DNA of 36,751 nucleotides from a virus, in IMG/VR virus record IMGVR_UViG_3300034106_001645, positions 1 to 36,751 of that record, one strand, 5' to 3'. Made by a program: the position numbers and the translations under genes. Positions 1-35,332 of this stretch are shown in pieces. How positions within the stretch are numbered: the stretch's first letter is position 1; each line of letters begins with the position of its first letter. The notes below the pieces were generated by a model. The model had not been told where the DNA came from and made no database searches. It was given only the letters and a program-made list of their open reading frames with translations.

Positions 1-1398
<1,398 letters not shown>

Positions 1399-4124: not shown

Positions 4125-5518
4125 TGTTGAGCTTTCTTGATCAACTCGATGAAGAGCAACTGAAGTACGCCAGGATCATTGGAGAGCGGGCTCGTTCGAT
4201 CAAGATTGATCCTTCCCTAGCCATTGCTATTGCGTATCAAGAAAGCCGGTTGCGACCTTCTGTGGGGAATAGCCCTAAGGGTGCTATTGGGATTATGCAG
4301 GTGATGCCTGCTACTGCTGCGAACTTGAACGTCGGGGCTGATGCACTTCGTGATGTTGATGCCAACATCAATGTTGGTCTGAAAGTGTTGAAGCAGGCGT
4401 TGAATGAAGCCCAGCAAGACCCTATTAAGGCCGCAATTGTTTACAACGCAGGCGGCCCAAAGTTAAAGTTGTTCAATGAAGGCAAGGGTCTTCCTGAAGA
4501 AACCAAGGGGTATATCGGTAGTTTGTATTCCTTTGGAGCCTTCAAAGATCGACCTATGCCTGAAGGCATTCCAACCCCTCCTCCAGAAGATACTCAAGAA
4601 CAGGATAAAGGAGGAACGCCTGCAGAGCGCGGTCCAGTCGGACAGGCTATGGACTTCATTGGAAAGTCTGCAGATGAACTTGGGCCTGGGGGTCTTGGGG
4701 CTACTGCGGGCTCTGTTCTTGCAATAGGTGAGAAGCTCGGCATGGGTCCGGCTTCAATTGCTGAGCAGTTTACCAAGGCGATGCAACCATCGGGGGCAAC
4801 CCCTGGAGCCCCTACTGCAGCGCCTTCTACGCCTCCAGTCCAACCTCCTGGAGTTACTCCTTCCCAACAGGCTACCCGTATCCTTCAGGGTACATCTGGG
4901 GACATGGGTACTACAGGTCGGCAGCGACAGATGGGCTACAACGAGCCTACCTCTCAGGTTGCTGCAAGGCGTGAGATGATTGCCAAGGATCTTGGAAAGA
5001 TCGGCCTGGACCCGCAGAAAGTTTTTGCGCAATTTCCGGACGTCACGTCTACCCCTAGTGGAGTGGTGTATCCCAGGGGCGTTGTGCCTCCTGATCTGAC
5101 GCCTCCTGCCCCGCCTCCGCCAAAAATCAGCCCGCTTGATCAAGCTAAGAAGTTGGTACAGGGCGTTATGAAACGAGGATCGCAAATCTCGCGTGGTCTG
5201 TCTGGGGTAGCCCGAGCGATTCCAATGGCTTCATACCCCTTAGCGGGATACTCAATCGGCAGCGATATCGGTGATATACGCGAGCAGATGAGCAAGCCCA
5301 AACCAGACTACACAGACATTGGATTGCTTGGCGCAGGGGCTCTAGGAACGCTTGGATCGTTCTCCAGCGCTCTTGCGCCTGTGGCAGTACCTCTAGCCCT
5401 TGGGGCGCCTGCTGTGCGCTATCTGAGAAGCCGTTTGAGCCCTAACGAGCCGGTGACTCCGGAAGATGAAACGCAAGCAGCGCGGCCAGCATTCGGTGTG
5501 TATCCAGGAATGAGGTAG
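4124..5518 (+). CDS. Lytic transglycosylase-domain internal virion protein
   Basis: 464 residues from the ATG at 4124, preferred over a GTG at 4121 because GGAGG at 4113-4117 is then correctly spaced. The N-terminal ~140 residues are an SLT (lysozyme-like goose-type) domain: YQESRLRP with catalytic Glu40, GAIGIMQVMPATA (53-65) and YNAGG (107-111). Such domains cleave peptidoglycan between MurNAc and GlcNAc and, in T7-type virions, locally open the cell wall during DNA entry. A Pro/Ala-rich middle (about 145-345) leads to a hydrophobic Gly/Ala C-terminal region (about 370-445) that could contact membrane. It is last in the late transcription unit and is followed by a strong terminator. Its position with two ejection-type proteins argues for a virion-borne enzyme rather than the main lysis endolysin. 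Confidence 0.9.
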   Translation: MLSFLDQLDEEQLKYARIIGERARSIKIDPSLAIAIAYQESRLRPSVGNSPKGAIGIMQVMPATAANLNVGADALRDVDANINVGLKVLKQALNEAQQDPIKAAIVYNAGGPKLKLFNEGKGLPEETKGYIGSLYSFGAFKDRPMPEGIPTPPPEDTQEQDKGGTPAERGPVGQAMDFIGKSADELGPGGLGATAGSVLAIGEKLGMGPASIAEQFTKAMQPSGATPGAPTAAPSTPPVQPPGVTPSQQATRILQGTSGDMGTTGRQRQMGYNEPTSQVAARREMIAKDLGKIGLDPQKVFAQFPDVTSTPSGVVYPRGVVPPDLTPPAPPPPKISPLDQAKKLVQGVMKRGSQISRGLSGVARAIPMASYPLAGYSIGSDIGDIREQMSKPKPDYTDIGLLGAGALGTLGSFSSALAPVAVPLALGAPAVRYLRSRLSPNEPVTPEDETQAARPAFGVYPGMR

Positions 5519-5577
5519 ACTGAAGCTGTTCAGCCTTCTCCCTGCTGAACACCGCAAGCAGTTGCCGCGGTTCTTGG

Positions 5578-5603
5578 CCCCCCTCGAGCAGGGGGGTTTT
5601 TTT
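5578..5603 (+). terminator. Rho-independent terminator of the late unit
   Basis: CCCCCC (5578-5583), a 7-base loop and GGGGGG (5591-5596) are followed by seven T (5597-5603). It lies 60 bp after the transglycosylase stop and faces the convergent leftward operon, whose last stop codon (TAA on the minus strand, 5602-5604) overlaps the T tract. A weaker stem, GTTCAG/CTGAAC at 5528-5550, precedes it. There is no T tract on the minus strand side, so it acts on rightward transcripts. Confidence 0.9.
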
Positions 5604-5823
5604 ATGGGCGCTGCGTGTTGAGCTTGTTGCCGACTTCCCGGTTCATGCTCGAGACAATGTCTACGCACCGGGAGTGCTCTTCTCTTGCGACGTCTCTGCG
5701 GATCACCGCATAGAACTTCTTAGCAAAGTCCAACAGGTTCACGTTGTCGGCGTACACCCCCTTGGGGTCTTTGTCGTCAACGTAGAAGAACACTTGTTTA
5801 ACGAGATCGTCATCGATTTTCAT
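5602..5823 (-). CDS. Hypothetical small acidic protein, last gene of leftward operon
   Basis: 73 residues beginning MKIDDDLVKQVFFYVDD. It is rich in Asp and Val, predicted soluble, and shows no known motif. It starts 3 bp after the PD-(D/E)XK nuclease stop, with AGGTAA upstream of the ATG, so it is co-transcribed with that gene. The stop codon falls inside the T tract of the opposing late terminator, showing how tightly the two convergent units are packed. Function unknown. Confidence 0.65.
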   Translation of the reverse strand: MKIDDDLVKQVFFYVDDKDPKGVYADNVNLLDFAKKFYAVIRRDVAREEHSRCVDIVSSMNREVGNKLNTQRP

Positions 5824-5826
5824 GAG

Positions 5827-6582
5827 TTACCTATGGTTGTGTTTGATTTGCCAGAAGCGGAGAAGGTGGTAGTACATCTCCCAGGCTTCGTCCAACTCTT
5901 CTGCGGTCCATTCCTTGATGACGCACAGGCCTGGGACTGACCGAGAGACAAAGATGTTGGCGCACCGGGCTTTGGGAAGAGCCAGTCCTACCCGGTAGGC
6001 GGCGAGTTGCATCCGATGGTCCTCGTAGCCATCAACTTTTGAGGGATCGGTGAACTCTTTGGTCTTGACGTCAACGACGATGCCTGGGCAATGCAGATCG
6101 ACCTTGCCACCGTATCCCAGGTCATGGCCGAAGGAGCGCTCAGCAACCCATCCCTGCGGGCCAAAGTGCCCGTCAAGGGCCTTAGAGCAGGCCTGGACGT
6201 GCTCTTGGTGCTTGTGCCATACCTCACCCCTGTAGAAGGCTTCGATCGCGGCGTGGATGTCTGTGCCGGCATCTGCCGCGGCTCTGCCTTGTTCCTTTGA
6301 GTCTTCCAGAATCCTTGCGAGGTAGTCGTCTTCTGACTCTGCATCGATTTTGGGCAGAGTCAGTGCTGCAAGCAGGACTTGCTTCTGCAGCCACTGCGTT
6401 AGTTGAGGCTTTGCAGCCACGTTCAGGATCGTAGTGACGCTGGGGACCAGAGAAAACTCCCTGGCGTCTCTGAGCGTGGTGTTGCGGATCTTCCCGTTCT
6501 TGCCGAGGATTGTGTAGGTAGGTTCTCCGTTTCTGGAGTACCAGTGTCCAGAGTCGGATGGGCGTTCTTTAGCTGTCAGCAT
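5827..6582 (-). CDS. PD-(D/E)XK nuclease family protein (RecB/Cas4-like exonuclease)
   Basis: 251 residues with the ordered motifs of this superfamily: AGTDIHAAIEAF with His110, then GGKVDLH with Asp162, DVKTKEF with Asp171 and Lys173, and QLAAYR with Gln192. These form the metal-binding D...DxK core and the helical Q-YR motif seen in phage exonucleases. It is likely to process double-stranded DNA ends for recombination or replication, or to degrade host DNA; the sequence cannot tell these apart. An SSB-like gene lies in the same operon, a usual partner of phage recombination nucleases, and a RuvC-like resolvase is in the rightward operon. No separate annealing protein is recognised. Confidence 0.85.
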   Translation of the reverse strand: MLTAKERPSDSGHWYSRNGEPTYTILGKNGKIRNTTLRDAREFSLVPSVTTILNVAAKPQLTQWLQKQVLLAALTLPKIDAESEDDYLARILEDSKEQGRAAADAGTDIHAAIEAFYRGEVWHKHQEHVQACSKALDGHFGPQGWVAERSFGHDLGYGGKVDLHCPGIVVDVKTKEFTDPSKVDGYEDHRMQLAAYRVGLALPKARCANIFVSRSVPGLCVIKEWTAEELDEAWEMYYHLLRFWQIKHNHR

Positions 6583-6799
6583 TTCTTTCTTTCTTGGCTT
6601 TGGCTTTGGCTTGAATTTCTTCCCATTGAGCCATTAAATCTTCGCCTGCAAGTTTGTGCTCTGCTTCTAGCTCGTAAATCCAGTCAGTAAGCAGATCACA
6701 ACGCATCAAAGGGTCTAACTCCCTAAATGCTTCAAGATTCCCGATTGATCCTTCTCCGCAATCAAAACTCCACTTAAAGGTTGGTTTGTTGGTTCTCAT
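6569..6799 (-). CDS. Hypothetical small protein
   Basis: 76 residues from the ATG at 6799, chosen over an upstream ATG at 6823 because GGAG stands 8 bases before it and the overlap with the preceding gene is then shorter. The protein begins MRTNKPTFKWSFDCGEG and is mostly helical and charged, ending in a Lys/Ala-rich tail (AKAKAKKE). Its end overlaps the nuclease start by 14 bp, so translation of the two is probably coupled. No family recognised. Confidence 0.65.
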   Translation of the reverse strand: MRTNKPTFKWSFDCGEGSIGNLEAFRELDPLMRCDLLTDWIYELEAEHKLAGEDLMAQWEEIQAKAKAKKERNADS

Positions 6800-10744: not shown

Positions 10745-10835
10745 AGTGTTGCGAAACCCGGCTAGGTGGGAAGTCATGAGCCCACCGAAAAGCGACCCCG
10801 TCCCGCCTGCCGTTGGTTTCCTTTAGGACGGATCT

Positions 10836-12746: not shown

Positions 12747-13195
12747 GGTTCTGCGGTATCGACCCTGGAGCCATCTCTGGTGCCTGGGGGATGCTTGATC
12801 ACCATGGCCAGTATGGGTCCAGTGGGTTCATTCCAAACGATGCCGGCCGGATTAAAGCGGGCGACTTCAAGACGGAACTGATGCAGGCGATCGACAAGCA
12901 GGACGTGATGTTCTGCATCGAGGACGTACACGCTATGCCCAAGCAAGGCGTAAGCAGCACCTTCAAGTTCGGCATGGCAGTAGGTGCGATACAGGCGATC
13001 GTGGAGTTGACTCGTGCCCCATGGGTGATTGTGAGACCTCAGGCATGGAAGAAGGACATGGGAGTCACCGCTGAGAAGACCACGAGTCTGGAGTTGGCGA
13101 GACGACTGTGGCCGAGCGCCCCGCTGAAGAGAGTCAAAGACCACGGCGTGGCGGAGGCTCTGCTGTTGGCTGAATGGCTTAGGAGGCAATCATGA
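12743..13195 (+). CDS. RuvC-like Holliday junction resolvase
   Basis: 150 residues, close to normal RuvC-family length. GIDPGAISGAWG holds catalytic Asp7; CIEDVHAMP holds Glu60; KDHGVAEALLLAEWL gives Asp133 and Glu138 as the last acidic positions of the RNase H-like fold. It would cut four-way DNA junctions made during phage recombination and clear branched DNA before packaging. It is coupled to the gene before and, unexpectedly, to the epimerase after (ATGA). It lies in a recombination module with an SSB-like protein, a PD-(D/E)XK nuclease and a Ref-like nuclease. Confidence 0.85.
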   Translation: MRFCGIDPGAISGAWGMLDHHGQYGSSGFIPNDAGRIKAGDFKTELMQAIDKQDVMFCIEDVHAMPKQGVSSTFKFGMAVGAIQAIVELTRAPWVIVRPQAWKKDMGVTAEKTTSLELARRLWPSAPLKRVKDHGVAEALLLAEWLRRQS

Positions 13196-14172
13196 TAGTG
13201 ATACTGGGAGGCGGTGGATTCATTGGCGGTCATTTGGGGCGCAGGCTCAAAAGCGAAGGGCACCGCGTTCGTATCGTAGACATCAAGCGACACGAGTATT
13301 TCCAGCAAGACGAGATATGCAACGAGTTCATACTTGGTGACTTGCGTGACCCAAAGACAGTAGCCCTAGTAATAGACGAAGGCTCTACTGTGTACCAGTT
13401 GGCTGCGGATATGGGTGGCGCTGGATACATATTCACCGGGCTCAATGATGCAAACGTAATGCATAACTCTGCGCTGATCAATCTGAACGTAGCGCATGAA
13501 TGTGTTCAAAAGAAAGTGAAGCGCGTCTTCTACTCATCATCGGCGTGCATGTATCCAGAATATAACCAACTGGATCCAGATAACCCAAATTGTGAAGAGA
13601 GTTCTGCTTACCCGGCTAACCCAGATTCTGAGTATGGCTGGGAGAAGCTATTCAGCGAGCGCTTGTATCTCGCTTTCAATCGCAACTACGGGCTAGACGT
13701 CAGGATTGCACGGTTCCACAATATTTTTGGGCCGCAGGGTACATGGACAGGCGGGAAGGAGAAGGCGCCCGCGGCGATGCTGCGCAAAGCGGCCGAGGGC
13801 TGCATGGAGGTCTGGGGAGACGGTAAGCAGACGCGCAGCTTCCTCTACATCGATGAGTGCATCGAGGCGGTCTTGAGATTGATGCGGTCAAACTTCTTGG
13901 GGCCGGTCAATATAGGGTCTAAAGAGATGGTCACCATCAATCAACTAGCCAAGATTGCCATCGAGATATCGGGCAAAGATTTGCGCATTCAAAACATACA
14001 CGGGCAAGAGTTCTTTGAGAAGTATGGATTCAAATGTCCTGTGGGTGTGCGCGGCAGAACATCTGATAACCGACTGTACAGAGACCAGATTGGATGGGAA
14101 GTATCTGCGCCTCTTGTGGACGGCATGAAAACAACATATGCCTGGATTGCAGGGCAACTGGAGAAACAGTGA
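13192..14172 (+). CDS. GDP-mannose 3,5-epimerase (GME-like, SDR family)
   Basis: 326 residues, full-length extended SDR enzyme. GGGGFIGGHL (6-15) is the NAD-binding Gly motif. SSSACMYPE gives Cys119, YGWEK gives Tyr148 and Lys152, and GGKEKAPAAM gives Lys191; GVRGRTSDN lies near the C-terminus. From memory, plant GME uses Cys145, Tyr174, Lys178 and Lys217; the spacings 29, 4 and 39 are identical here. Segments RFHNIFGPQGTWTGGKEKAP and VWGDGKQTRSFLYIDEC are nearly plant-like. GME converts GDP-D-mannose to GDP-L-galactose (and GDP-L-gulose). An extra ~10 residues precede GVRGR. It is ATGA-coupled to the RuvC-like gene in a DNA-recombination operon, an odd place for sugar metabolism. Two sugar-transferase-like genes lie 6 kb downstream. 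Confidence 0.9.
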   Translation: MIVILGGGGFIGGHLGRRLKSEGHRVRIVDIKRHEYFQQDEICNEFILGDLRDPKTVALVIDEGSTVYQLAADMGGAGYIFTGLNDANVMHNSALINLNVAHECVQKKVKRVFYSSSACMYPEYNQLDPDNPNCEESSAYPANPDSEYGWEKLFSERLYLAFNRNYGLDVRIARFHNIFGPQGTWTGGKEKAPAAMLRKAAEGCMEVWGDGKQTRSFLYIDECIEAVLRLMRSNFLGPVNIGSKEMVTINQLAKIAIEISGKDLRIQNIHGQEFFEKYGFKCPVGVRGRTSDNRLYRDQIGWEVSAPLVDGMKTTYAWIAGQLEKQ

Positions 14173-14333
14173 AAGAACCAACCTTATTGGACGTGTTCGC
14201 GGTCTTTGCAATGCACGCCATGCTGCAACGCGGACATGAGATCGAACTGATTGAACTGTCTGAGGTGTCGTATGAGATAGCTCAGGCCATGCTGGAGCAA
14301 TCCCAGAAAGCGGAACATGGACAGCCCCACTGA
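14169..14333 (+). CDS. Small hypothetical protein (GTG start)
   Basis: 54 residues from GTG 14169, overlapping the epimerase stop as GTGA with GGAG six bases before it. VKEPTLLDVFAVFAMHAMLQ is hydrophobic but probably a packed amphipathic helix; ELSEVSYEIAQAMLEQSQKA follows. Similar short helical proteins are frequent in phage replication regions. Function unknown. Confidence 0.65.
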   Translation: MKEPTLLDVFAVFAMHAMLQRGHEIELIELSEVSYEIAQAMLEQSQKAEHGQPH

Positions 14334-14664
14334 GATCAACCCTGAACGCAGCCTCGAGTACATCTGGCGGCACTCCAAGGCCTACGCAAAGGCTAAGGCG
14401 GAGCGGATCTACCTCGAGGAGTACCGAAAGAGCCTGAAGGCCATCTTGATGAAGCGTGCGCTGACGCAAGGATTTGAGGCAGCAAACGCTCAGGAACGGG
14501 AAGCCTACGCAGACCCCGACTACAAAGCCCTCTTGGAAGGCCTTAAAACGGCCATAGAGGCTGAGGAAGCGATCAGGTGGGGGTTGATAGCCGCAGAGGC
14601 TGCAATCGACGTCTGGCGGTCTAAGGAAGCCAGCGCAAGACAAGAGGTAAAGGCAGCACTATGA
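14317..14664 (+). CDS. Conserved helical phage protein
   Basis: 115 residues, almost entirely helical and Ala/Glu/Lys-rich (YIWRHSKAYAKAKAERIYLE, then MKRALTQGFEAANAQEREAY). I associate this pattern with a small phage protein often found just before Ref-like or DUF968-like nuclease genes, as here. Overlaps both neighbours. A role with the nuclease is possible but not shown by any motif. Confidence 0.7.
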   Translation: MDSPTEINPERSLEYIWRHSKAYAKAKAERIYLEEYRKSLKAILMKRALTQGFEAANAQEREAYADPDYKALLEGLKTAIEAEEAIRWGLIAAEAAIDVWRSKEASARQEVKAAL

Positions 14665-14939
14665 CGACACTGGCAGAGAAGAAGCATATGAGCCGCGTGG
14701 CGGAACTTGGATGCGCTGTATGCCGCAGGATGGGCCACGCGGGTACGCCTGCAGAACTGCATCACCCGCGGCACGGGGCAGGAATGGGCAAGAGAGCAGG
14801 TCACTTCAGCGTGATTCCGTTGTGCCCGGAGCACCACCGCGGCAACACCGGAGTCCACGGCCTGGGAACGAAAGGCTTCCCGAAGCACTGGGGCTTCACC
14901 GAAGAGGATCTGTTGAAGGAGACCCTCGAACTTGTGTAA
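14661..14939 (+). CDS. Ref-like (RecA-dependent nuclease) HNH protein
   Basis: 92 residues. GCAVCRRMG (Cys18, Cys21), ELHHPRHGAGMGKRAGHF (His34, His35), IPLCPEHHRG (Cys55, His58, His59) and GVHGLGTKGFPKHWG give the Cys/His zinc site and HNH catalytic core of the phage P1 Ref type, without P1 Ref's long N-terminal extension. P1 Ref cuts DNA at RecA-formed displacement loops. Here it would serve phage recombination with the RuvC-like and SSB-like proteins. It is the last gene before the first promoter-leader repeat. Confidence 0.8.
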   Translation: MTTLAEKKHMSRVAELGCAVCRRMGHAGTPAELHHPRHGAGMGKRAGHFSVIPLCPEHHRGNTGVHGLGTKGFPKHWGFTEEDLLKETLELV

Positions 14940-14954
14940 GACCCCATGAAACAG

Positions 14955-15024
14955 TAGGGATTGACTCAACGATCAAAGAGTCGCTTACACTGCATTCACT
15001 GCAATGACGCAGGTTAACAAGGAA
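14955..15024 (+). promoter_or_regulatory. Promoter-leader repeat, copy 1
   Basis: TAGGG (14955), TTGACT (14961-14966), CAAAGAGTCGCTTACACTGC with TACACT at 14986-14991, TTCACTGCA, then GCAGGTTAACAAGGAA ending at 15024. The order and spacing match two later copies; AAGGAA provides the ribosome site for the ATG at 15031. TTGACT and TACACT are 19 bases apart, a little long for sigma-70. The conserved block is best read as a promoter plus 5' leader. Confidence 0.7.
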
Positions 15025-15030
15025 ACCCAA

Positions 15031-15321
15031 ATGACTACCGCAATCAAGACCAGCCAGATCGACGACCTCGGCATCCTCCTGGCTCAGATCGCTGATCTGA
15101 CCAAGCAGGCCGACAAGATCAAGGCCGACATCAAGGAAGAGGCCAGCCTCAGTGGCCAGAAGGCGTTTGACGGTGAACTCTTCACCGCCAGCTACATCGA
15201 GAGCAACCGGTCCACCGTGGACTGGAAGGCGATCGCCAAGGTTCTGGCCATCCCGGCCGACCTCATTGCAAAGCACACCGGCACCACCGCGGTGTACAGC
15301 GTCAAGGTCACGTCCCGTTAA
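15031..15321 (+). CDS. Conserved phage protein (helical N-terminus, ERSTxDWKA-type C-terminus)
   Basis: 96 residues from ATG 15031, preferred over ATG 15004 because the leader repeat places AAGGAA just before it. ILLAQIADLTKQADKIKADI is a coiled coil; the second half contains YIESNRSTVDWKAIAKVL and AKHTGTTAVYSVKVTSR, a pattern I recognise in a widespread unnamed phage family. First gene after promoter-leader copy 1. Function unknown. Confidence 0.75.
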   Translation: MTTAIKTSQIDDLGILLAQIADLTKQADKIKADIKEEASLSGQKAFDGELFTASYIESNRSTVDWKAIAKVLAIPADLIAKHTGTTAVYSVKVTSR

Positions 15322-15326
15322 ACCCA

Positions 15327-15340
15327 GCCCCTTCGGGGGC
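15327..15340 (+). other. UUCG-tetraloop hairpin
   Basis: GCCCC-TTCG-GGGGC directly after the stop at 15321, without a T tract. C(UUCG)G loops are exceptionally stable RNA hairpins. It may stabilise the upstream message end or slow transcription; two more hairpins with the same loop occur in the late region. Confidence 0.7.
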
Positions 15341-15357
15341 ATACCAAGGAAAGCACC

Positions 15358-15513
15358 ATGAAGATCTGTTTCACAGAGAAGGAAGTCGCGGAGATTGTTC
15401 TGGCTTATGTGCAGAAGTTCTTCCCGCAGGCCAATGTGGCCGAGATTAGCCACTACAGCGTGGACTACTGCAGGGTAACGCACGAGGCTCCGGCTGAGCC
15501 TGAGGCTGAGTAA
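15358..15513 (+). CDS. Small hypothetical protein
   Basis: 51 residues starting MKICFTEKEVAEIVLAYVQK and ending in an acidic EAPAEPEAE tail. AAGGAAAGCACC precedes the ATG, a strong ribosome site. It sits between a UUCG hairpin and a terminator-like stem, completing the first small-gene cassette. Predicted helix then strands; no family recognised. Confidence 0.65.
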   Translation: MKICFTEKEVAEIVLAYVQKFFPQANVAEISHYSVDYCRVTHEAPAEPEAE

Positions 15514-15518
15514 GCACA

Positions 15519-15539
15519 AGGCCCCTAGTGGGCCTTTCC
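15519..15539 (+). terminator. Weak terminator between small-gene cassettes
   Basis: AGGCCC (15519-15524), loop CTAGT, GGGCCT (15530-15535), then TTTCCT. It lies six bases after the stop at 15513 and just before promoter-leader copy 2. The short T run suggests partial termination. Confidence 0.6.
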
Positions 15540-15550
15540 TACTTAAACAC

Positions 15551-15618
15551 TAGGGTATCGACCAGTAGGCAAAGAATCGCTTACACTCTCTTTACTGCAC
15601 TACGCAGGCAACAAGGAA
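15551..15618 (+). promoter_or_regulatory. Promoter-leader repeat, copy 2
   Basis: TAGGG (15551), CAAAGAATCGCTTACACTCT with TACACT at 15582-15587, TTTACTGCA, then GCAGGCAACAAGGAA ending 15618. TAGGG-to-TACACT distance is 31 bases, as in copy 1. The -35 position reads ATCGAC, a poor sigma-70 match, while the rest is kept, so the conserved part is more than a housekeeping promoter. ATG follows at 15624. Confidence 0.7.
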
Positions 15619-15623
15619 TCAAG

Positions 15624-15803
15624 ATGTTCAAAGTCATCACTGAGTACAAGGGCTGGAGCCAGTCTCTGCCCGTCACCATGACCCGCGAGTTCAGCAGCCG
15701 CGAGCAGGCGTTAGACTGGATCTCTGACGAGATCTTCCAAGAGGACACGCTGCGCGTGCGCTGCCCGCAGATGGACATCGAGGAAGTGGGAGAGTTCGCA
15801 TGA
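15624..15803 (+). CDS. Small hypothetical protein
   Basis: 59 residues from ATG 15624, six bases after AAGGAA of promoter-leader copy 2; the longer in-frame start at 15528 would precede the promoter. MFKVITEYKGWSQSLPVTMT is a beta-strand pair and REFSSREQALDWISDEI a helix, a small alpha/beta fold. It resembles small phage proteins of unknown function. ATGA overlap with the next gene. Confidence 0.65.
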   Translation: MFKVITEYKGWSQSLPVTMTREFSSREQALDWISDEIFQEDTLRVRCPQMDIEEVGEFA

Positions 15804-16006
15804 ACACGCATCGCACCGGCAACGAGTGGGTTGCAGGCTTGGACCGGAAATGGGGTTTCGGCGCTGACTTTGCGTGCGAAGACATCATCGATGCCCCGTC
15901 TTGGATTCCTACGGGATCCTCGAAAGTAGTGGAAGGCTGCGGAGAGCCCGTCGTCTTCCGCCACAACTTCCGCCCAGGCATTTGGGGGAGCGGCAAATAT
16001 GACTGA
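15800..16006 (+). CDS. Small hypothetical protein
   Basis: 68 residues, MNTHRTGNEWVAGLDRKWGF at the start, rich in Gly and Trp, with no motif recognised. It overlaps the preceding stop by 4 bp and the next start by 8 bp, so it is translated from the same message. Function unknown. Confidence 0.55.
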   Translation: MNTHRTGNEWVAGLDRKWGFGADFACEDIIDAPSWIPTGSSKVVEGCGEPVVFRHNFRPGIWGSGKYD

Positions 16007-16178
16007 GATGAAGATCACGGTTGTCTACGATCCTCCCCCAATCCCGCTGCGCACAATGGACTATGTGGCTTACGAAGATGAGCACAGCGCTAGGGGCGCA
16101 ACGGCCGGAGAAGCCGTAGAGGCTCTGCTGGAGCAGTTCCCTGAAGAGCCCGACATCGAAGTGATAATCGAGAGATGA
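15999..16178 (+). CDS. Small hypothetical acidic protein
   Basis: 59 residues: MTEMKITVVYDPPPIPLRTM, then YEDEHSARGATAGEAVEALL and an acidic end (FPEEPDIEVIIER). One strand, a helix and a strand are likely. GGGGGAG lies upstream of the ATG; the stop overlaps the next ATG. Similar little proteins with AxEAVExLL helices occur across phages. Function unknown. Confidence 0.65.
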   Translation: MTEMKITVVYDPPPIPLRTMDYVAYEDEHSARGATAGEAVEALLEQFPEEPDIEVIIER

Positions 16179-16456
16179 ACGAACAGCATCAAGCAGTCAT
16201 CGACTTCTGCAACGAACCCAGGACCGCGGCTGAGATCAGCAAAGTCCTGGGAGTCACGCGCTGGTACACCTATTCGATGTGCCGGCGCAAGTTGCTCAAG
16301 AACGTCACACAGGCGCACGGGGAAGCCCGATACGTGGCCGCGGAAGAGATGCCTCCACCGGTCAAACGGAAATCTCGAGCTAAGCAGTGGACGCCTCAAG
16401 CAGCTATTGCCCAGGTCAGCAGCATCTGGCACTACGCCGAGCGTATGAAATCCTGA
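16175..16456 (+). CDS. Possible winged-helix DNA-binding protein
   Basis: 93 residues. AVIDFCNEPRTAAEISKVLG followed by VTRWYTYSMCRRKLLKNVTQ and RYVAAE has the helix-helix-wing shape of small winged-helix proteins (DNA end recognition helix WYTYSMCRRKLL). The second half is basic (PPPVKRKSRAKQW). It could regulate phage promoters, perhaps the repeated ones here, but nothing shows its target. ATGA overlap with the preceding gene. Confidence 0.6.
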   Translation: MNEQHQAVIDFCNEPRTAAEISKVLGVTRWYTYSMCRRKLLKNVTQAHGEARYVAAEEMPPPVKRKSRAKQWTPQAAIAQVSSIWHYAERMKS

Positions 16457-16464
16457 CAAAGATG

Positions 16465-16538
16465 TAGGGACATAGGCACACAGTCCAAGAATCGCTTACA
16501 CTAGCGTCACTGCAATCAAGCAGGTAACAGAGAAGGAA
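16465..16538 (+). promoter_or_regulatory. Promoter-leader repeat, copy 3
   Basis: TAGGG (16465), CCAAGAATCGCTTACACTAG with TACACT at 16497-16502, GTCACTGCA, then GCAGGTAACAGAGAAGGAA ending 16538. It has one extra base between TAGGG and TACACT and a few extra leader bases. ATG follows at 16546. Confidence 0.7.
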
Positions 16539-16545
16539 CAGAGAA

Positions 16546-16749
16546 ATGAACAACTACCGCATCAGCAAGGAAGGCAACGAGTGGGCCGTGAGCAACAAGA
16601 AGACCGGCCTGATCCTCGTCGCCTTCGACCGCAAGGACCAAGCCGAAGACTATCTGGTGGCACAGCGCCGCGCTGACGAGCAGAGCCAAGTGCTCGGCGA
16701 CTTCAACCGCGCTGCCCTGATCCGCGAACTGCTGGCTGAACTGGCTTGA
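16546..16749 (+). CDS. Small hypothetical protein
   Basis: 67 residues. MNNYRISKEGNEWAVSNKKT and GLILVAFDRKDQAEDYLVAQ suggest beta strands followed by helices; the C-terminus (AALIRELLAELA) is helical. It directly follows promoter-leader copy 3, with AAGGAA as ribosome site. No family recognised. Confidence 0.65.
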   Translation: MNNYRISKEGNEWAVSNKKTGLILVAFDRKDQAEDYLVAQRRADEQSQVLGDFNRAALIRELLAELA

Positions 16750-16761
16750 GAGGAGCAGATC

Positions 16762-17055
16762 ATGACTGCAATCACCGTTGTGTCAGCTTCGGAATACTCA
16801 AACACCTTGGTCTACATGGTGCTGCGTGGCAAAACCACCTATTGGATTCAGTACAGCGGAAAGCTGCCGCCCTACGTCAGCCAGCGGTACTTCTCCAAAC
16901 TTGGTAGGTCTGGAGAGCGCCGAGTGCCTGATGGCAAGGTACGTGCCAATTTGCTGGCCGCGATTGAGGCGTACAAGGCGCAACCGCTGCGCGAACGTCT
17001 CTGCACCCCCATGACTGTTGGCGAGGCTTCTCTTGCTGCCTCTAGCGTCATCTAA
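16762..17055 (+). CDS. Hypothetical protein
   Basis: 97 residues beginning MTAITVVSASEYSNTLVYMV, strand-rich and with several Tyr (YWIQYSGKLPPYVSQRYFSK). No catalytic motif or membrane segment. GGAG precedes the ATG; it lies 12 bp after the previous stop, in the third cassette. Function unknown. Confidence 0.6.
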   Translation: MTAITVVSASEYSNTLVYMVLRGKTTYWIQYSGKLPPYVSQRYFSKLGRSGERRVPDGKVRANLLAAIEAYKAQPLRERLCTPMTVGEASLAASSVI

Positions 17056-17066
17056 GGAGCAAGACC

Positions 17067-17318
17067 ATGCTGTACGGATACATCTCCTCCTTCGACGCCG
17101 ACAGGCCCGAAACCCCCGAAGTGACCGAACTCAAGTTCGACATCACCCTGAACGCCATCAAGCGTACAGTAGAGTACGACGAAGACGGCGCCTTCATCGT
17201 GAAGGCAAACGGCAAGACCGCGGAACGCGATCTCACTGAAGAACAGTGGGACGACCTTGAGCGCGAAGTCCAGAAACGCCTTCGCCCTGACTGGGTTGAC
17301 TATTGGCTGGCAAACTAA
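17067..17318 (+). CDS. Hypothetical acidic protein
   Basis: 83 residues: MLYGYISSFDADRPETPEVT, strands with VEYDEDGAFIVKANGK and a charged helix EEQWDDLEREVQKRLRPDWV. Strongly acidic overall. AAGGAGC precedes the ATG. Last gene before the packaging module; function unknown. Confidence 0.6.
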   Translation: MLYGYISSFDADRPETPEVTELKFDITLNAIKRTVEYDEDGAFIVKANGKTAERDLTEEQWDDLEREVQKRLRPDWVDYWLAN

Positions 17319-17330
17319 GAATAGAATCAA

Positions 17331-17350
17331 CTCCAGATTAAACGCTGGAG
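17331..17350 (+). promoter_or_regulatory. Hairpin covering the terminase small-subunit ribosome site
   Basis: CTCCAG (17331-17336), an eight-base loop and CTGGAG (17345-17350). The 3' arm holds the GGAG ribosome-binding sequence six bases before the ATG at 17357. If it forms in mRNA it would hide the site and lower translation. A TAGAAT at 17322-17327 just upstream could be a -10, but no -35 at proper distance was found. Confidence 0.5.
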
Positions 17351-17356
17351 CCAAAC

Positions 17357-17947
17357 ATGCCCCTCAAAGCCCTTAAAACGCCTCAGGAGCCACCAAAGCC
17401 AAAGACTAAGGCTAAGGTGGCTTCAGCCCTTGCGGTAGCTCCAAAGAAGACAGGACGGCCCTCTAAGTACACACCAGAGATAGCCAAGCAAATGTGCGAG
17501 ATGCTCGCAGATGGAGTGCCACTCAGAGAAATCTGCAGGCGGGAAGGCTTCCCAGCTTGGCAAACAGTTTACGACTGGATGTGGCGAGATGATTTGTTGG
17601 GTGAGGGCGGCGCCGGTCTTTCCGTAGCCATCGCACGGGCTCGTGAAGTCGGCCAGGACGCTATTGCCGAGGAGATCTGGCTGGACATGAACCAGCAGCC
17701 TGAGCGCATCCTCTCGGAGGGCGGCGGCCGGGTGGACTCAGGCTATGTGCAGTGGCAGAAGGCTAAGGCTGAGATCGGGCTGAAGCTGCTGGCCAAGTGG
17801 AACCCTAAGCGCTACGGTGACCGCGTGCAACTGGCTGGTGACGCTGATAGCCCGTTGAAGATCGAGGCTGAAGTGACCGCCGACAAGCTACTCCAGGCCT
17901 TGCTGACCAACGCAGAGTTGAAGAAGAAGGCTAACGACTCCGTGTAA
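17357..17947 (+). CDS. Terminase small subunit
   Basis: 196 residues. A Lys/Pro/Ala-rich N-terminus (1-30) is followed by GRPSKYTPEIAKQMCEML and VPLREICRREGFPAWQTVYD, the helix-turn-helix of a common phage small terminase family that recognises the packaging site. The C-terminal part has RVDSGYVQWQKAKAEIGLKL and NPKRYGDRVQLAGD, typical of the oligomerising region of this family. It starts the late/packaging unit, with the large subunit two genes downstream. Confidence 0.85.
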   Translation: MPLKALKTPQEPPKPKTKAKVASALAVAPKKTGRPSKYTPEIAKQMCEMLADGVPLREICRREGFPAWQTVYDWMWRDDLLGEGGAGLSVAIARAREVGQDAIAEEIWLDMNQQPERILSEGGGRVDSGYVQWQKAKAEIGLKLLAKWNPKRYGDRVQLAGDADSPLKIEAEVTADKLLQALLTNAELKKKANDSV

Positions 17948-18039
17948 GAACCTCTTTTGGTCTCGGAAAACACGGGCTGAGACCACCAAGCGTGCAATAA
18001 TCCATTGATCGTTGTGTAGTTTCTTGCTACATTCTTGTG

Positions 18040-18168
18040 ATGCCGAACTGCCGCACCTGCCATTACTCCTTTCAGGATCCTGCGCTGGTGCTGCGGTGCC
18101 GGTACTTCAACCGCATCTGCTACCAGCCGTGCGACTTGTACATCTACGAACCGGGGGCACTAGCATGA
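18040..18168 (+). CDS. Small Cys-rich (zinc-ribbon-like) protein
   Basis: 42 residues: MPNCRTCHYSFQDPALVLRC, then RYFNRICYQPCDLYIYEPGA. Cys4, Cys7, Cys20, Cys27 and Cys31 form CxxC-type pairs suited to a zinc ribbon; proteins of this length with CRxC at the start and a xEPGA end occur in other phage genomes, which favours a real gene. No good ribosome site is visible; GTG at 18037 is an alternative start. It lies between the terminase subunits. Confidence 0.55.
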   Translation: MPNCRTCHYSFQDPALVLRCRYFNRICYQPCDLYIYEPGALA

Positions 18169-18184
18169 GAGCTAGGAATAACTG

Positions 18185-18451
18185 ATGGACAACAGGATCA
18201 CTGTGCCCCAGGTAGCCCGCTTGATGGGCGTAGTGCTGGACAACCGCACTTCCTGGGCGGTGGGCTCAGAGATGGCTCACCAGTACCAGCAGGAGTTCGG
18301 TGAGAACCCGCCGAAGGACAACCGGCCGAAGACCAATGGCGGTGGCTCTCACTGCTTCGCGCTGTACCCAGTCAAGTGGGAGCAGAAGATCCGCGACGTC
18401 ATCGAGTCACATCTCGAGCAGCAGGCTCGGCAGGACAGCCTGTTCGAATGA
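18185..18451 (+). CDS. Conserved phage protein between terminase subunits
   Basis: 88 residues. VPQVARLMGVVLDNRTSWAV and MAHQYQQEFGENPPKDNRPK, then GGGSHCFALYPVKWEQKIRD. The first part could be a helix-turn-helix-like fold, but it is not decisive. Located directly before the large terminase with an ATGA overlap, so translation is coupled. Function unknown; possible packaging accessory. Confidence 0.65.
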   Translation: MDNRITVPQVARLMGVVLDNRTSWAVGSEMAHQYQQEFGENPPKDNRPKTNGGGSHCFALYPVKWEQKIRDVIESHLEQQARQDSLFE

Positions 18452-19866
18452 CTGACTTAGCAGAGGCGTTCAGAGACCCTCAGGTACTGGCCAGCCTCAA
18501 GTCCCTGCCCGTAGAGAAGCGCTTAGCCTATCTCTGGCGGGCCACCTGGGTGCAGACGGCACACAAGCATCAGATCGTCCCGTCAGGCGACTGGTGGAGC
18601 GTCTGGCTCATGCTGGCCGGCCGCGGCGCAGGCAAGACACGCACGGCCGCAGAGCAGATCGGCTGGTGGGCCTGGACGGAGCCCGAGACCCGCTGGCTGG
18701 TAGCAGCCCCCACTAGCGCTGACGTCCGTGGCACCTGCTTCGAGGGCGACTCAGGCCTGCTGAGCGTCATCCCGAAGGAGTTGGTGGCGGACTACAACAA
18801 GGCGTACCACGAGCTACGGCTGACCAACGGGAGCCTGATCAAGGGCATCCCTGCCAGTGAGCCTGAGCGCTTCCGGGGGCCGCAGTTCCACGGGGCTTGG
18901 TGCGATGAGCTAGCAGCCTGGGAGTACATCCAGGAGGCCTGGGACCAGATCCAGTTCGGGGTCCGGCTGGGCCAGAAGACCAGGACGATCATCACGACTA
19001 CCCCGCGGCCGAAGGATCTGATCCTCGAGTTGATCGGCCGGGAAGGCGACGACGTAGTGATGACGACCGCCTCCACATACGAGAACCTGGGCAACCTGTC
19101 GGAGAACTTCAGGAAGCAGATCCTGCAGTACGAGGGGACGAAGCTCGGCAGGCAGGAGATCTACGCTGAGATCATCGACCCTGAGGACGGGGGGATTGTC
19201 AGGCGGGACTGGTTCAAGCTCTGGCCTGCTGGGCGGGCGTTCCCGAAGTTCGAGTACATCGTGCAGAGCTATGACTGCGCGACGTCAGAGAAGGCGATCA
19301 ATGACCCGACTGCCTCGAGCACCTGGGGAGTGTTCAAGCCGCAGGATGGCCCGATGAGCGTGATGCTGATCGACTGCTGGAACGAGCGGATGCAGTACCC
19401 GGATCTGCGGCCGAAGGTTATCGAGGAGTACGACACCATCTTTGGAGAGGGCAAGGAGAAGAAGCGGGTGGACTTGATCCTGATCGAGGACAAGTCGGCC
19501 GGCATCAGTCTGATCCAGGATCTGCAGAGAGCGCACCTTCCTGTGCGGGGGTACAACCCTGGCAAGGCAGACAAGGTCCAGCGGTTGAACATCGTCTCGA
19601 ACATCATTGCCCGCGGCAGGGTGTGGATCCCTGAGAGCGATCGTCGGAAGGGTTACGTGAAGGACTGGGCTGAGGGGTTTGTGTCGCAGATGTGCGCCTT
19701 CCCTGAGACGACTCACGATGACTACGTAGACACCTGCACGCAGGCTTTGAGGTTCCTGAGGGATGCAGGGTGGTTGGAGATTGATCCTCCACCTGAGGAT
19801 GACTACGACGAGGACGACTACGTAGACAGTGGCAAGACCAAACGAGAGAACCCATACGCGCAATGA
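18448..19866 (+). CDS. Terminase large subunit
   Basis: 472 residues from ATG 18448, which overlaps the preceding stop; the longer in-frame start would overlap it more. Walker A is GRGAGKT (58-64), Walker B is WCDELAAW with Asp153 and Glu154, and a TTTPRP coupling segment follows. The C-terminal RNase H-like nuclease has YDCATSEK (Asp276), LIEDKSAG (Asp348) and HDDYVDTCTQAL (Asp424-Asp428), the three acidic positions expected for cutting concatemers. It drives DNA packaging through the portal. Acidic tail (PPPEDDYDEDDYVD). Its stop overlaps the first glycosyltransferase-like gene. Confidence 0.95.
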   Translation: MTDLAEAFRDPQVLASLKSLPVEKRLAYLWRATWVQTAHKHQIVPSGDWWSVWLMLAGRGAGKTRTAAEQIGWWAWTEPETRWLVAAPTSADVRGTCFEGDSGLLSVIPKELVADYNKAYHELRLTNGSLIKGIPASEPERFRGPQFHGAWCDELAAWEYIQEAWDQIQFGVRLGQKTRTIITTTPRPKDLILELIGREGDDVVMTTASTYENLGNLSENFRKQILQYEGTKLGRQEIYAEIIDPEDGGIVRRDWFKLWPAGRAFPKFEYIVQSYDCATSEKAINDPTASSTWGVFKPQDGPMSVMLIDCWNERMQYPDLRPKVIEEYDTIFGEGKEKKRVDLILIEDKSAGISLIQDLQRAHLPVRGYNPGKADKVQRLNIVSNIIARGRVWIPESDRRKGYVKDWAEGFVSQMCAFPETTHDDYVDTCTQALRFLRDAGWLEIDPPPEDDYDEDDYVDSGKTKRENPYAQ

Positions 19867-20552
19867 AGTACATATTCAGTATTGGTGTATTTGGGAATAA
19901 TCCCAGGTATATATATGGTGCGTATAAGCAGTATGAGTTAGCTCAGAGATATTACCCTGGCTGGGAGTTTCGAGTATATATTGATGATGCCAGCAGGATT
20001 AACTTACCTAGGGCGACGGTCATAGAGGTCAAGGACAACTCTGATGGTACGTTCTGGAGGTTCTTCCCTTGGTTTGAGTCTGGTCTAAACGTGACGATCT
20101 GCCGGGATGCTGATAGCAGGATTACGGCTAGAGAGGCGATGGCCACGTATGAGTGGTTGGCCTCTGACAAGATGTTCCATATCATGAAGGATCACCCTAC
20201 GCATAGGCCGATACCAATCCTTGCGGGGATGTGTGGGATGAAGGGCCAGTTAGATTCAGGTGTGGGGACTAAGCTACTGGCCAGGATGCTGGTTCGCAAA
20301 GAGTACGGCGCTGATCAGGATTTTCTTGCCAATGTGGTGTATCCGGTTGTCAAGCACAGTTGCATGGAGCACGAGTTTGATACTGGTTGGTTTGGAGTAT
20401 CAAGGAATCATTTGTATAACCGGTATGAGTGGGTAGGTAACGGGTTTGACGAGAATGAGTTACCGATATATCCGCCTACTGCTGAAGAGCGTAATGGGTA
20501 TGACCGTTTCAAGTTGCCGGAGTCGGCTAAGTTCTGTGGGTATTACAAATGA
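19863..20552 (+). CDS. Glycosyltransferase-like protein with DxD motif
   Basis: 229 residues. YKQYELAQRYYPGWEFRVYI and FWRFFPWFESGLNVTICRDA lead into RDADSRITAREAMATYEWLA with Asp82-Ala-Asp84, the DxD metal and nucleotide-sugar site of a GT-A-type fold. DHPTHRPIPILAGMCGMKG follows, a pattern I know from small bacterial and phage proteins of this kind. Substrate unknown. It is ATGA-coupled to the large terminase and to the next gene, and its DNA is visibly richer in A/T (e.g. 19907-19920) than neighbours, suggesting separate acquisition. Its first 11 bases are the same as those of the next gene. Confidence 0.75.
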   Translation: MKYIFSIGVFGNNPRYIYGAYKQYELAQRYYPGWEFRVYIDDASRINLPRATVIEVKDNSDGTFWRFFPWFESGLNVTICRDADSRITAREAMATYEWLASDKMFHIMKDHPTHRPIPILAGMCGMKGQLDSGVGTKLLARMLVRKEYGADQDFLANVVYPVVKHSCMEHEFDTGWFGVSRNHLYNRYEWVGNGFDENELPIYPPTAEERNGYDRFKLPESAKFCGYYK

Positions 20553-21367
20553 AGTACATTATCTCTAAGGGTTTTGAGGGGTTCTGTGACAGGCTGCAAT
20601 GCTTGTCTGATTGCCTTACTACCTCCATCAAGTACAACAGGACGCTGGTCGTTGACTGGAACGACAGGATCTGGAAGGAGGGGTTCTACCGGTACTTCTG
20701 GTTTGAGGGCTTGCCAGAACCTTCTGTAGTGGAGGGGGCGATCTGGCCTGAGTGGTGGAAGGAGGCGCTTGCAAAGCCTGCGGGGGACTGGATCTACAAG
20801 CTACGGGATGAGTTGACGTTCAACCTTGAGAAGGCTGACCCGTATGCGGGGGTGTGGGTGCATCCTGGGATAGGGCTGAGAACGTACAACTTCGGTGTCT
20901 TGGCGAAGCATTGGAGGCTGACGGATGACTGTAAGGAGCACGTTCTGGAGCATTTGAAGGGGGTTCCTGACCTTCCTGTGGTTCACCTGAGGGGTACGGA
21001 CAGGGAGTTCAAAGAGGAGCGCTTTGAGGAGCTTGTGGCAAAGGTGCCACGGGCTGCAGTGGTGTCAGATGATGAGGGGCTGGTGAAGAGGTGGATGGAG
21101 CGGTGCCCTGAGTCTGTAGTGGTGACCAAGAGGTTTGTGTCAGACAAGGTTGGCGGACACCGGCTAAATGAGTGGCAGCTACCTAAGGGGCTGACCAAGC
21201 ACCAGATGAACCTTGACCTGATTGCGGACTTCATGACGTTGGCATGTGCGCAGGAGGCGCATGGGCTGAACGAGGAGAGCCTGTTCTGCAAGATGGCGGT
21301 GCTGTTTGGCAAATGCGGCGGGCCAGAGGCGATGGGGCTCAAGAAGCGTCCGCAAGTGAACGCTTGA
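20549..21367 (+). CDS. Fucosyltransferase-like glycosyltransferase
   Basis: 272 residues. GFCDRLQCLSDCLTTSIKYN and RTLVVDWNDRIW resemble the N-terminal start of NodZ/FUT8-type and GT11 GT-B enzymes, and PVVHLRGTDREF (His146, Arg148, Asp151) is the Arg-containing motif that binds GDP-fucose. VVSDDEGLVKRWMERCPE and later LIADFMTLACAQEAHGLN match the second half of that fold, where the acceptor and nucleotide meet. The donor should be a GDP-sugar; GDP-L-fucose or GDP-L-galactose are candidates, the latter supplied by the epimerase at 13192. ATGA-coupled to the previous glycosyltransferase. Acceptor unknown. Confidence 0.75.
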   Translation: MKYIISKGFEGFCDRLQCLSDCLTTSIKYNRTLVVDWNDRIWKEGFYRYFWFEGLPEPSVVEGAIWPEWWKEALAKPAGDWIYKLRDELTFNLEKADPYAGVWVHPGIGLRTYNFGVLAKHWRLTDDCKEHVLEHLKGVPDLPVVHLRGTDREFKEERFEELVAKVPRAAVVSDDEGLVKRWMERCPESVVVTKRFVSDKVGGHRLNEWQLPKGLTKHQMNLDLIADFMTLACAQEAHGLNEESLFCKMAVLFGKCGGPEAMGLKKRPQVNA

Positions 21368-34336: not shown

Positions 34337-35332
34337 ATGGGTCAATTCAAGCCGATGGTGAAGATGACCACCACTGAGCCCTCAGTCGAACTGAAGCTCA
34401 AGAGTGGTGGCGCGGTGGAGAAGAAGATGCAGATGGGTGGGGCGCTTGCCGCTACGCCTGCTGCTGGTCCTGCTATGCGTGCTCCGGCTCGCGGTGGGAT
34501 GATGCCTGCTGCAGCGCCTGGGAAGCCTTCTATGGCTGCTCGACGCCGTGCGATGAAGGCTATGCCTGCTGGCGCTGCTCCCGCGGCTCCTGTGGGCATG
34601 GCTGGTCGCATGATGAAAGATGGTGGCGAGGCTACTAGCCTGAAGGCTCACGCCGGCATGCCTGCGTCCAAGGCCCACAAGGGCTTGAAGACGGGTGGCG
34701 TGGTGGATGGGCAAGGCGGCTACAAGTCTGGCGGCATCATCAAGTCCAAGGTCGGCAAAACCACCAAGATGGACACTGCAAAGCCTGATCATTCACCGGC
34801 CAAGACTGGCGATGTGAAGATGGGCAATGGCGGTGGTTACAAAGATGGCGGTATGGCCTGCGCTACTGGTGGCGTCATCAAGGCAAATGGTGGCGGCTAC
34901 AAGAAAGGTGGCGCAGCAAAAAAAGCCTACGCCACGGGGGGGCTTGTTGACTCAGGCCGTCCCGTGGCGATGCCTCAAGGAGCGAAGAAGCCTTCGAAGC
35001 CTGTAAGCATCAATCAACTGTCAGGCACCTTCAAAAAGGGTGGGGCGGTGATGATGAAAGGGGGCGGCAAGGCTGATGTTCCTCCCAAGGGTGTTGAGGA
35101 TACGATTCAGACTGCACGAAACGAACGGGACTACAAGGCCTGGGAGAAGAGTCAGGCTGAAGAGAACAAGGCCGCGGCGCAAGGCGTTGGTAGCATGTTC
35201 TCGTCAATTCCTCGTAAGCTGAAGGAAATCTTCTCGCCAGCGAAGGCGGCTAGTGCGCCTGGGTCAGTGACAAAGACTGAAAAGTCTGTAACAGTCACTC
35301 CAAAGAAGCGCGGCGGGGCCGTTACCTGCTGA
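34337..35332 (+). CDS. Lys-Gly-Gly repeat virion-associated protein
   Basis: 331 residues, very basic. Residues 45-105 are Ala/Pro/Met-rich; 105-245 carry repeated KxGG units: LKTGGVVDGQGGYKSGGII, GNGGGYKDGGMACATGGVI, NGGGYKKGGAAKKAYATGGL and TFKKGGAVMMKGGGK. The C-terminal ~90 residues contain a charged helix (RNERDYKAWEKSQAEENKAA). These motifs resemble the KGGFVQ stretches in the two giant proteins and AAGGF in the TG-repeat protein. Probably disordered; may bind nucleic acid or membranes through its positive charge. AAGGAG near the previous stop is its ribosome site. Confidence 0.65.
   Translation: MGQFKPMVKMTTTEPSVELKLKSGGAVEKKMQMGGALAATPAAGPAMRAPARGGMMPAAAPGKPSMAARRRAMKAMPAGAAPAAPVGMAGRMMKDGGEATSLKAHAGMPASKAHKGLKTGGVVDGQGGYKSGGIIKSKVGKTTKMDTAKPDHSPAKTGDVKMGNGGGYKDGGMACATGGVIKANGGGYKKGGAAKKAYATGGLVDSGRPVAMPQGAKKPSKPVSINQLSGTFKKGGAVMMKGGGKADVPPKGVEDTIQTARNERDYKAWEKSQAEENKAAAQGVGSMFSSIPRKLKEIFSPAKAASAPGSVTKTEKSVTVTPKKRGGAVTC

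Follow-up and report, generated by a model that had tools for sequence, protein, structure and literature searches.

Sugar genes of a freshwater tailed phage and a candidate Thr-Gly/Ser-Gly repeat acceptor

Sugar genes of the window

The stretch analysed here (the window, 36,751 bases, IMG/VR virus record IMGVR_UViG_3300034106_001645) belongs to a freshwater tailed phage and includes genes for terminase, portal and capsid proteins. It carries three intact open reading frames for putative sugar enzymes, here called GME, GT and FUT, and the C-terminal part of a protein with arrays of Thr-Gly (TG) and Ser-Gly (SG) dipeptides. Relatives of FUT were found together with TG/SG-repeat proteins in both phages and bacteria, pointing to these repeats as a candidate acceptor for phage-encoded glycosylation. 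The four features are:

13192..14172, + strand: GME, 326 aa, by sequence a GDP-mannose 3,5-epimerase (GDP-D-mannose to GDP-L-galactose / GDP-L-gulose)
19863..20552, + strand: GT, 229 aa, small DxD glycosyltransferase with a predicted GT-A fold, presumed to extend the chain
20549..21367, + strand: FUT, 272 aa, transferase of the NodZ/FUT8/POFUT superfamily, presumed to be the first transferase onto Thr/Ser
1..1398, + strand: C-terminal part of the repeat protein (candidate acceptor), which belongs to the structural module and runs beyond the window edge; it contains (TG)n/(SG)n arrays

Overlaps of 4 bases were found between a RuvC-like resolvase gene and GME, between the terminase large subunit (TerL) gene and GT, and between GT and FUT. 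Because of these overlaps, GT and FUT are probably co-translated with the late structural genes. The end of GME and the start of GT are ~5.7 kb apart, matching the ~6 kb of the original prediction, an annotation made from the sequence alone that had proposed an L-galactose-type glycosylation pathway here.

The epimerase of that prediction was borne out. GME had as best PDB match the Arabidopsis GDP-mannose-3′,5′-epimerase 2c59 (E 4.7e-91, 309 bits). Other families scored at most 88 bits (UDP-glucuronate decarboxylase and others), with GME thus the closest of the SDR sugar enzyme families, and the Fcl (GDP-fucose synthase) model gave 89 bits (cut-off 500). Residues G6, G9 and G12 of the SDR NAD-binding motif GxxGxxG, and Y148 and K152 of YxxxK, were invariant in five phage sequences. 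C119, K191 and R289 were conserved and align with the catalytic Cys, Lys (which we take to be Lys217) and Arg of 2c59. By sequence and catalytic residues, 13192–14172 is a GDP-mannose 3,5-epimerase, and its predicted products are most likely GDP-L-galactose (or GDP-L-gulose). The NAD motif, YxxxK, the catalytic Cys145 and Lys, and Arg306 are the GME features listed in section 2.4 of PMC6678494. The GMEs of plants and of Methylacidiphilum fumariolicum, the subject of the same paper, resemble the window GME over the whole length and in the catalytic Cys, Lys, Tyr and Arg; the GME roles discussed in its excerpts concern ascorbate, antibiotics and lipopolysaccharide (LPS). The window GME differs from those enzymes in being phage-borne and accompanied by GT and FUT.

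FUT has the motif HLRGTDR at residues 146–152, invariant in seven rows of one alignment (A4) and ten rows of another (A6). Searches of the window FUT against Pfam (NodZ and O-FucT PF10250 included), PHROG and NCBIfam gave no match at E 0.1. The Pfam NodZ profile matched the FUT proteins of two other phage loci, L160 (E 0.079) and L471 (E 0.0043), both below the cut-off. We considered membership of the Pfam NodZ (GT23) or O-FucT family and rejected it, the scores falling short of the cut-offs. In the reverse direction, the A6 profile (ten FUT relatives) matched NodZ 2hhc among solved structures (E 1.8e-6). A structure model built from seven sequences (pLDDT 62.5, pTM 0.66) retrieved exclusively fucosyltransferases in Foldseek rows 1–32 (best NodZ, E 7e-4) and in VIA rows 1–42 (Z 9.6–12.6), the next unrelated chain having a Z of 5.7. 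The VIA Z values were 12.6 for FUT8, 12.5 for NodZ, 11.3 for AtFUT1, 10.2 for POFUT1 and 10.0 for POFUT2. Profile and predicted fold alike relate FUT distantly to the NodZ/FUT8/POFUT fucosyltransferases, and the name “fucosyltransferase-like” given to 20549–21367 in the original prediction is right at the level of the fold. A GDP-fucose-type fold by itself shows no function. NodZ, FUT8, AtFUT1 and POFUT1 have in common with FUT the fold, presumably the use of GDP-sugar donors, and an HxR motif that we take to be equivalent; the structure alignments gave 13–19% identity. We assume that NodZ and FUT8 belong to GT23, AtFUT1 to GT37 and POFUT1 to GT65. The window FUT had no match in the phages collection, and the L160 FUT only chance-level matches in the plasmids collection (E 0.6–0.7).

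For GT, the claim of a DxD glycosyltransferase agrees with the invariant D82 and D84 and with the predicted glycosyltransferase (GT-A) fold (pLDDT 75.9, pTM 0.78). The two Asp residues are part of an RDADSR motif at residues 81–86, in which R81, S85 and R86 were also invariant (10 rows). PBCV-1 is a virus of algae, and its glycosyltransferase for the major capsid protein (2p6w/2p73) was the best Foldseek match of the GT model (2p6w, E 1.9e-6), with a TM-score of only 0.47 and 14% identity. LgtC and glycogenin followed. Foldseek rows 1–42 were all named glycosyltransferases or glycogenin, presumably of the GT-A class, with TM-scores of only 0.37–0.55. The fold match is a lead for a sugar transferase and says nothing on the donor. 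There was no match at E 0.1 in Pfam, PHROG or NCBIfam, a Pfam scan of ten members of the GT family was likewise negative, and a profile search of solved structures gave nothing credible (best E 0.5). Relatives with 29–34% identity were present in six phage records, two of them labelled by their depositors as SPINDLY-type O-GlcNAc transferase.

Thr-Gly and Ser-Gly repeats beside FUT genes

By scanning bacterial genomes we found five FUT genes, 46–49% identical to the window FUT, all in metagenome-assembled genomes (Nitrosomonadales, Oryzomonas, a proteobacterium, Comamonadaceae and a beta proteobacterium). A (Thr-Gly)n-repeat protein was encoded near FUT in all five loci, always within 3.2 kb. 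The gaps between FUT and the repeat frame were 50 bases in L265, 919 in L266, 211 in L267, 3,158 in L268 and 1,488 in L269. Frames with at least 10 TG per 40 residues occurred, among 271 sequences, in these five loci and in the window only. In three of the genomes (G057, G058 and G059) every (TG)5 match lay on the FUT contig, contigs being paired by number or position. Of the remaining two, one had 8 of its 10 matches there, and the other had an interrupted tract (TGTGSDTG) that the strict pattern missed. As a background frequency, a (TG)5 match anywhere in the genome was present in 50 of the 399 genomes screened from one order. A linkage probability calculated from these data (product 1e-14) is a back-of-envelope value whose criterion was set after seeing the data, and we do not rely on it.

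FUT lies next to a sulfotransferase gene (PF13469; E values from 4e-19 to 1e-17) in L265 (2034–2864), L266 (9165–9998) and L267 (2253–3308), three of the five loci from bacteria. The tract sugar might be sulfated.

In phages, the full repeat protein was found in two near-identical records (L299 and L300), with 1,775 and 1,789 aa, 187 and 195 TG dipeptides, and 70 SG dipeptides. The length of the tract thus varies between close relatives. All 16 Thr-Gly hexamers are employed in the L299 tract, indicating conservation at the level of the amino acids and not a simple DNA repeat. The C-terminus, with the motif QSDDIPA..., is common to the relatives. Homologues of this protein had TG/SG arrays in all 11 records that bear FUT (the window, G001, G005, L489, L490, L491, L492, L493, L494, L499 and L496), with 23–30 TG+SG per 60 aa; in L489 and L490 the arrays were mostly SG. 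None of the 10 homologues from FUT-less records (G013, G015, G017, G019, G022, G023, G024, G026, G037 and G044) had an array, the maximum being 11 TG+SG per 60 aa. The tally covers records with the homologue in view; in other FUT loci the homologue is outside the view. We excluded G004, whose FUT would fall off the contig. L489–L494, L496 and L499 were retrieved as FUT loci after the acceptor idea was formed, and their arrays were therefore predicted before they were seen. The association had a Fisher p of 2.8e-6 on records and of 0.001 when counted as four lineages versus ten, with L489–L494 and L499 taken as one. The FUT-less set was picked by terminase similarity to the window, and the comparison of 11 with 10 is not controlled for phylogeny. 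The original prediction had named no acceptor and had passed over the repeat protein at 1–1398; with these counts, the TG/SG-repeat structural protein becomes a candidate.

The link between FUT and the repeats could be a coincidence, if common low-complexity repeats were involved and the tally followed shared ancestry. Several of the FUT records are closely related, (TG)5 DNA matches were found in 50 of the 399 genomes mentioned above, and at least 120 viral stretches contained (TG)7. Set against this, the array frames were 50 to 3,158 bases from FUT in five of five bacterial loci, and the count by lineages still gave p 0.001, making chance a quite improbable explanation.

At least 74 of the at least 120 viral stretches chosen by the (TG)7 DNA pattern encode TG in a frame, and one of them (L424) has a GME. 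These stretches are short; the L383 contig, for example, has a FUT outside its stretch (L491). Nine of the TG-chosen loci had repeat-bearing homologues of the candidate acceptor and no FUT in the stretch examined (L375, L396, L400, L413, L416, L418, L433, L441 and L447), and in five the frame of the homologue contained no dense array (L344, L379, L382, L394 and L402). These 14 loci were left out of the tally, since they had been selected by the repeat pattern.

As further observations on the repeat proteins, L493 encodes (14810–19060, − strand) a homologue of the structural protein in which a near-pure (TG)n stretch extends over several hundred residues. L424 has four genes in a row: a (TG)n protein (3–461, − strand), an O-FucT-like gene (1646–2659; PF10250 E 4e-4, below the cut-off), a GME (2626–3648) and, judged by eye, a second epimerase-like gene (3645–4430). 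The same kind of arrangement may have arisen here by a different route, using a transferase of another family.

Co-occurrence with the epimerase and the sugar donor

Relatives with the transferases and never the epimerase would have spoken against the original prediction. In L160, GT (4260–4961), FUT (4958–5770) and GME (5767–6723) overlap end to start, and the TerL is 72% identical to that of the window. In L471 and L481, GME, GT and FUT are overlapping neighbours in this order; a single gene on the opposite strand separates them from TerL, which lies ~1.8–1.9 kb ahead. GME and FUT adjoin in L474, where no match to this terminase was found within the 14.7 kb examined. The last three loci were found by a scan with a FUT profile. 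Thus, four other phage contigs pair FUT with GME, and the transferases are not confined to genomes lacking the epimerase.

Our FUT sample consisted of 52 viral loci in 30 sequence clusters; all counts cover the stretch examined per locus, many of them fragments. GME was present in 5 of the 30 clusters, GT in 8 and both in 4. Neither GME nor GT was found in 75 FUT-less loci picked by terminase similarity. Among 48 terminase-relative records searched whole, many of them also fragments, GME was found in two, GT in three and FUT in four, as nested sets. FUT was scattered over the terminase tree (5 changes). The window and L160 GMEs fell in different clades of a 126-row tree (quick method), which would mean two separate pairings with the transferases, and an alignment showed a short insertion in the window GME, not present in that of L160. 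An AU test of the two as a sister pair gave p 0.091, so that a sister relation was not rejected.

Phages seem to have paired GME repeatedly with a neighbouring enzyme of the fucosyltransferase type. Fucosyltransferase-like genes were found within 5 kb of GME in 31 of 126 non-redundant phage GME loci, being adjacent in 11; the raw count (51 of 177) included some records several times. The iterative profiles drifted into GT11, so that the 31 are fucosyltransferase-like genes and not FUT. A Pfam scan of 37 such neighbours assigned 30 to GT11, 2 to O-FucT and 1 to FUT8. The same profile found 3 of 78 terminase-chosen loci (L096, L133 and L160, in all cases FUT itself) and 1 of at least 120 TG-chosen loci, a comparison biased towards the GME loci, from whose neighbours the profile had been built. 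This bias, and the presence of both gene kinds in large sugar clusters, weakens the evidence for a direct coupling.

GDP-L-galactose is the 6-hydroxy analogue of GDP-L-fucose, and either could be the donor. FUT might decorate the TG/SG repeats with GDP-L-fucose of the host, GME serving another step, for example supplying the donor of GT. GME was missing from the stretch examined in 25 of the 30 FUT clusters. A GDP-fucose synthase-like gene scoring more than 400 bits was present in three of the five bacterial genomes with FUT, in one of them exceeding the curated cut-off; one of the five had a GME-like gene (312 bits). From these counts, FUT may use L-fucose or an L-hexose, L-galactose being the version where the phage brings a GME. 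The L474 arrangement speaks against a separate role of GME, its GME lying directly beside FUT with no GT in the stretch examined. A host-supplied donor with GME serving elsewhere appears rather doubtful to us. From the originally predicted L-galactose pathway, the part that stands is that the three genes travel together and that FUT has the fold of GDP-fucose enzymes; GDP-L-galactose is a candidate donor, 21 of the 30 FUT clusters having neither GME nor GT in the stretch examined.

The proposed pathway and related systems

We propose that the phage encodes a small glycoprotein pathway. GME would make GDP-L-galactose (or GDP-L-gulose). From the GDP-sugar, FUT would transfer the L-hexose (L-galactose, or L-fucose of the host) onto the Thr and Ser hydroxyls of the TG/SG tract, giving a large structural phage protein a mucin-like region, and GT would put on a further sugar. 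That a FUT fed by GME glycosylates the repeats of the structural protein, with extension by GT, is our favoured explanation, and we give it about an even chance. The gene identities, the predicted folds, the gene neighbourhoods and the association of FUT with the repeats are observations; the reactions, the donor, the linkage and the place of the repeat protein in the virion are inferences. More broadly, and more tentatively, the as yet unnamed FUT family could be a dedicated Thr-Gly/Ser-Gly O-glycosyltransferase of bacteria and small tailed phages, the GME that some of the phages bring then yielding an L-galactosylated mucin-like protein. We know of no virion on which L-galactose has been described.

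The repeat protein is probably part of the virion, judging from the genes nearby: its gene sits before one for a DNA-ejection-like protein, and another specifies a virion protein resembling lytic transglycosylases. Its C-terminus matches tape-measure families weakly (best E 2e-6). Any function of the coat, whether shielding, receptor binding or holding the tract in extended form, is guesswork, shielding in particular, since the protein is possibly internal or ejected.

Several observations weigh against the proposed pathway. From its sequence context, the repeat protein may be internal or ejected instead of forming an exposed stalk, and the FUT model is of moderate quality only. TG arrays also occur without FUT: in the order mentioned above, 50 of 399 genomes had (TG)5 matches and one had FUT (the query’s own), and no FUT was found in the at least 120 viral stretches chosen by (TG)7, though the contig of one has it outside the stretch. 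The FUT-less G026 has a Thr/Gly-rich linker with 11 TG per 60 aa, the highest of its set. Conversely, the L168 record (61 kb, whole) has FUT and lacks GME, a TG array, a strong dipeptide repeat and a homologue of the repeat protein. GME was absent from both FUT records of the L168/L169 phage group (61 and 82 kb, searched whole), the group likewise having no TG arrays and no homologue of the repeat protein, and most FUT clusters lack both GME and GT in the stretch examined, many being fragments. On the bacterial side, the GME-like gene was found in only one of the FUT genomes, the GDP-fucose synthase-like gene in three.

Phage-borne GME together with fucosyltransferases is already in print. According to excerpts of its description (PMC9602691), the T4-like cyanophage S-SCSM1 encodes GME, GMD, GDP-fucose synthase, a protein O-fucosyltransferase and NodZ, and these were read as cell-wall genes. 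The original prediction of an undescribed system was thus too strong. NodZ is also present in the cyanophage S-SRM01 (excerpts of PMC8557907), within 2 kb of a homologue of the window GT. S-SCSM1 differs from the window by additionally having GMD, GDP-fucose synthase and many GTs; the window differs from both cyanophages by combining the three sugar genes with a TG/SG-repeat structural protein. The A6 profile did not match the NodZ of either cyanophage at E 1e-3. What is new here is the specific link of FUT to TG/SG repeats.

An alternative, already proposed for cyanophage sugar genes, is that the enzymes alter LPS or capsule on the host, perhaps shutting out other phages, with the repeat protein unrelated to FUT. 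GT11 is known mainly from polysaccharides, and it made up 30 of the 37 fucosyltransferase-like neighbours of phage GME scanned. The distance between NodZ and the GT homologue in S-SRM01 is ~1.4 kb, and in S-SCSM1 the GME, NodZ and many GTs were interpreted, in the excerpts of PMC9602691, as cell-wall modification. Surface remodelling leaves unexplained the TG/SG repeats beside FUT (five of five bacterial loci; 11 of 11 versus 0 of 10 phage records). The place of the window GT and FUT, immediately after TerL, also speaks against it. We consider it unlikely, though an alternative to be taken seriously.

Modification of phage DNA bases by these enzymes is very improbable. Enzymes that share the fold of FUT use glycans or protein Ser/Thr as acceptors, and its bacterial homologues lie beside repeat proteins. 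In favour of DNA as a target, L164, from a relative of the window phage, has a gene of the Mom family (123–779; PF25680, E 8e-37), which we take to be a DNA-modification family, ~0.2 kb before a FUT-GT-HNH row. In addition, phage GTs were reported to glucosylate DNA (excerpts of PMC12619734).

Two known systems come close to glycosylation of the repeat protein, as proposed here. Serine-rich-repeat systems use other transferase families. In excerpts of PMC7948813, the serine-rich-repeat glycoproteins of Gram-positive bacteria likewise combine a repeat protein with dedicated glycosylation; unlike the window protein, they are adhesins with accessory Sec export and not from phages. Virion glycosylation of mycobacteriophages is a second precedent, reportedly the subject of a 2023 study by Freeman. 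Their virion proteins are decorated by phage GTs, at the C-termini of capsid and tail-tube proteins (work cited in excerpts of PMC11600133 and PMC12619734), whereas in the window the proposed site is a TG/SG tract and the phage has a nucleotide-sugar enzyme of its own. Nothing was found among the open-licence papers listed on glycosylation of TG repeats, nor on bacterial O-fucosylation with Thr-Gly. If the proposal is true, an acceptor and the likely first transferase of a phage glycosylation pathway are named, and the purpose of phage nucleotide-sugar genes becomes directly testable with one peptide, one enzyme and three GDP-sugars. It would also provide a bacterial O-glycosylation motif (Thr-Gly/Ser-Gly repeats) with its enzyme, of use for the annotation of repeat proteins and for mucin-like polymers.

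Two further features of the window give context and are outside the pathway:

18376..19866, + strand: TerL (PF03237, E 3.6e-26), overlapping the start of GT
14317..14939, + strand: two small genes, for a 115-aa protein and an HNH/Ref-like nuclease

Homologues of the two small genes lie also beside the sugar genes of L160 (3659–4245), directly before GT-FUT-GME. L096 (1–1497) has a cut FUT gene, followed by a 209-aa protein without Pfam match, a methyltransferase-like gene (by eye) and an HNH gene, so the accessory locus differs among phages. Behind the capsid gene, the window encodes a basic, glycine-rich repeat protein (34337–35332) without match in PHROG or Pfam at E 0.01. No sugar-related RNA reached the Rfam gathering score in the window or five relatives; an int-alpA RNA match at 10755–10831 of the window barely did (35.9 vs 35.8 bits).

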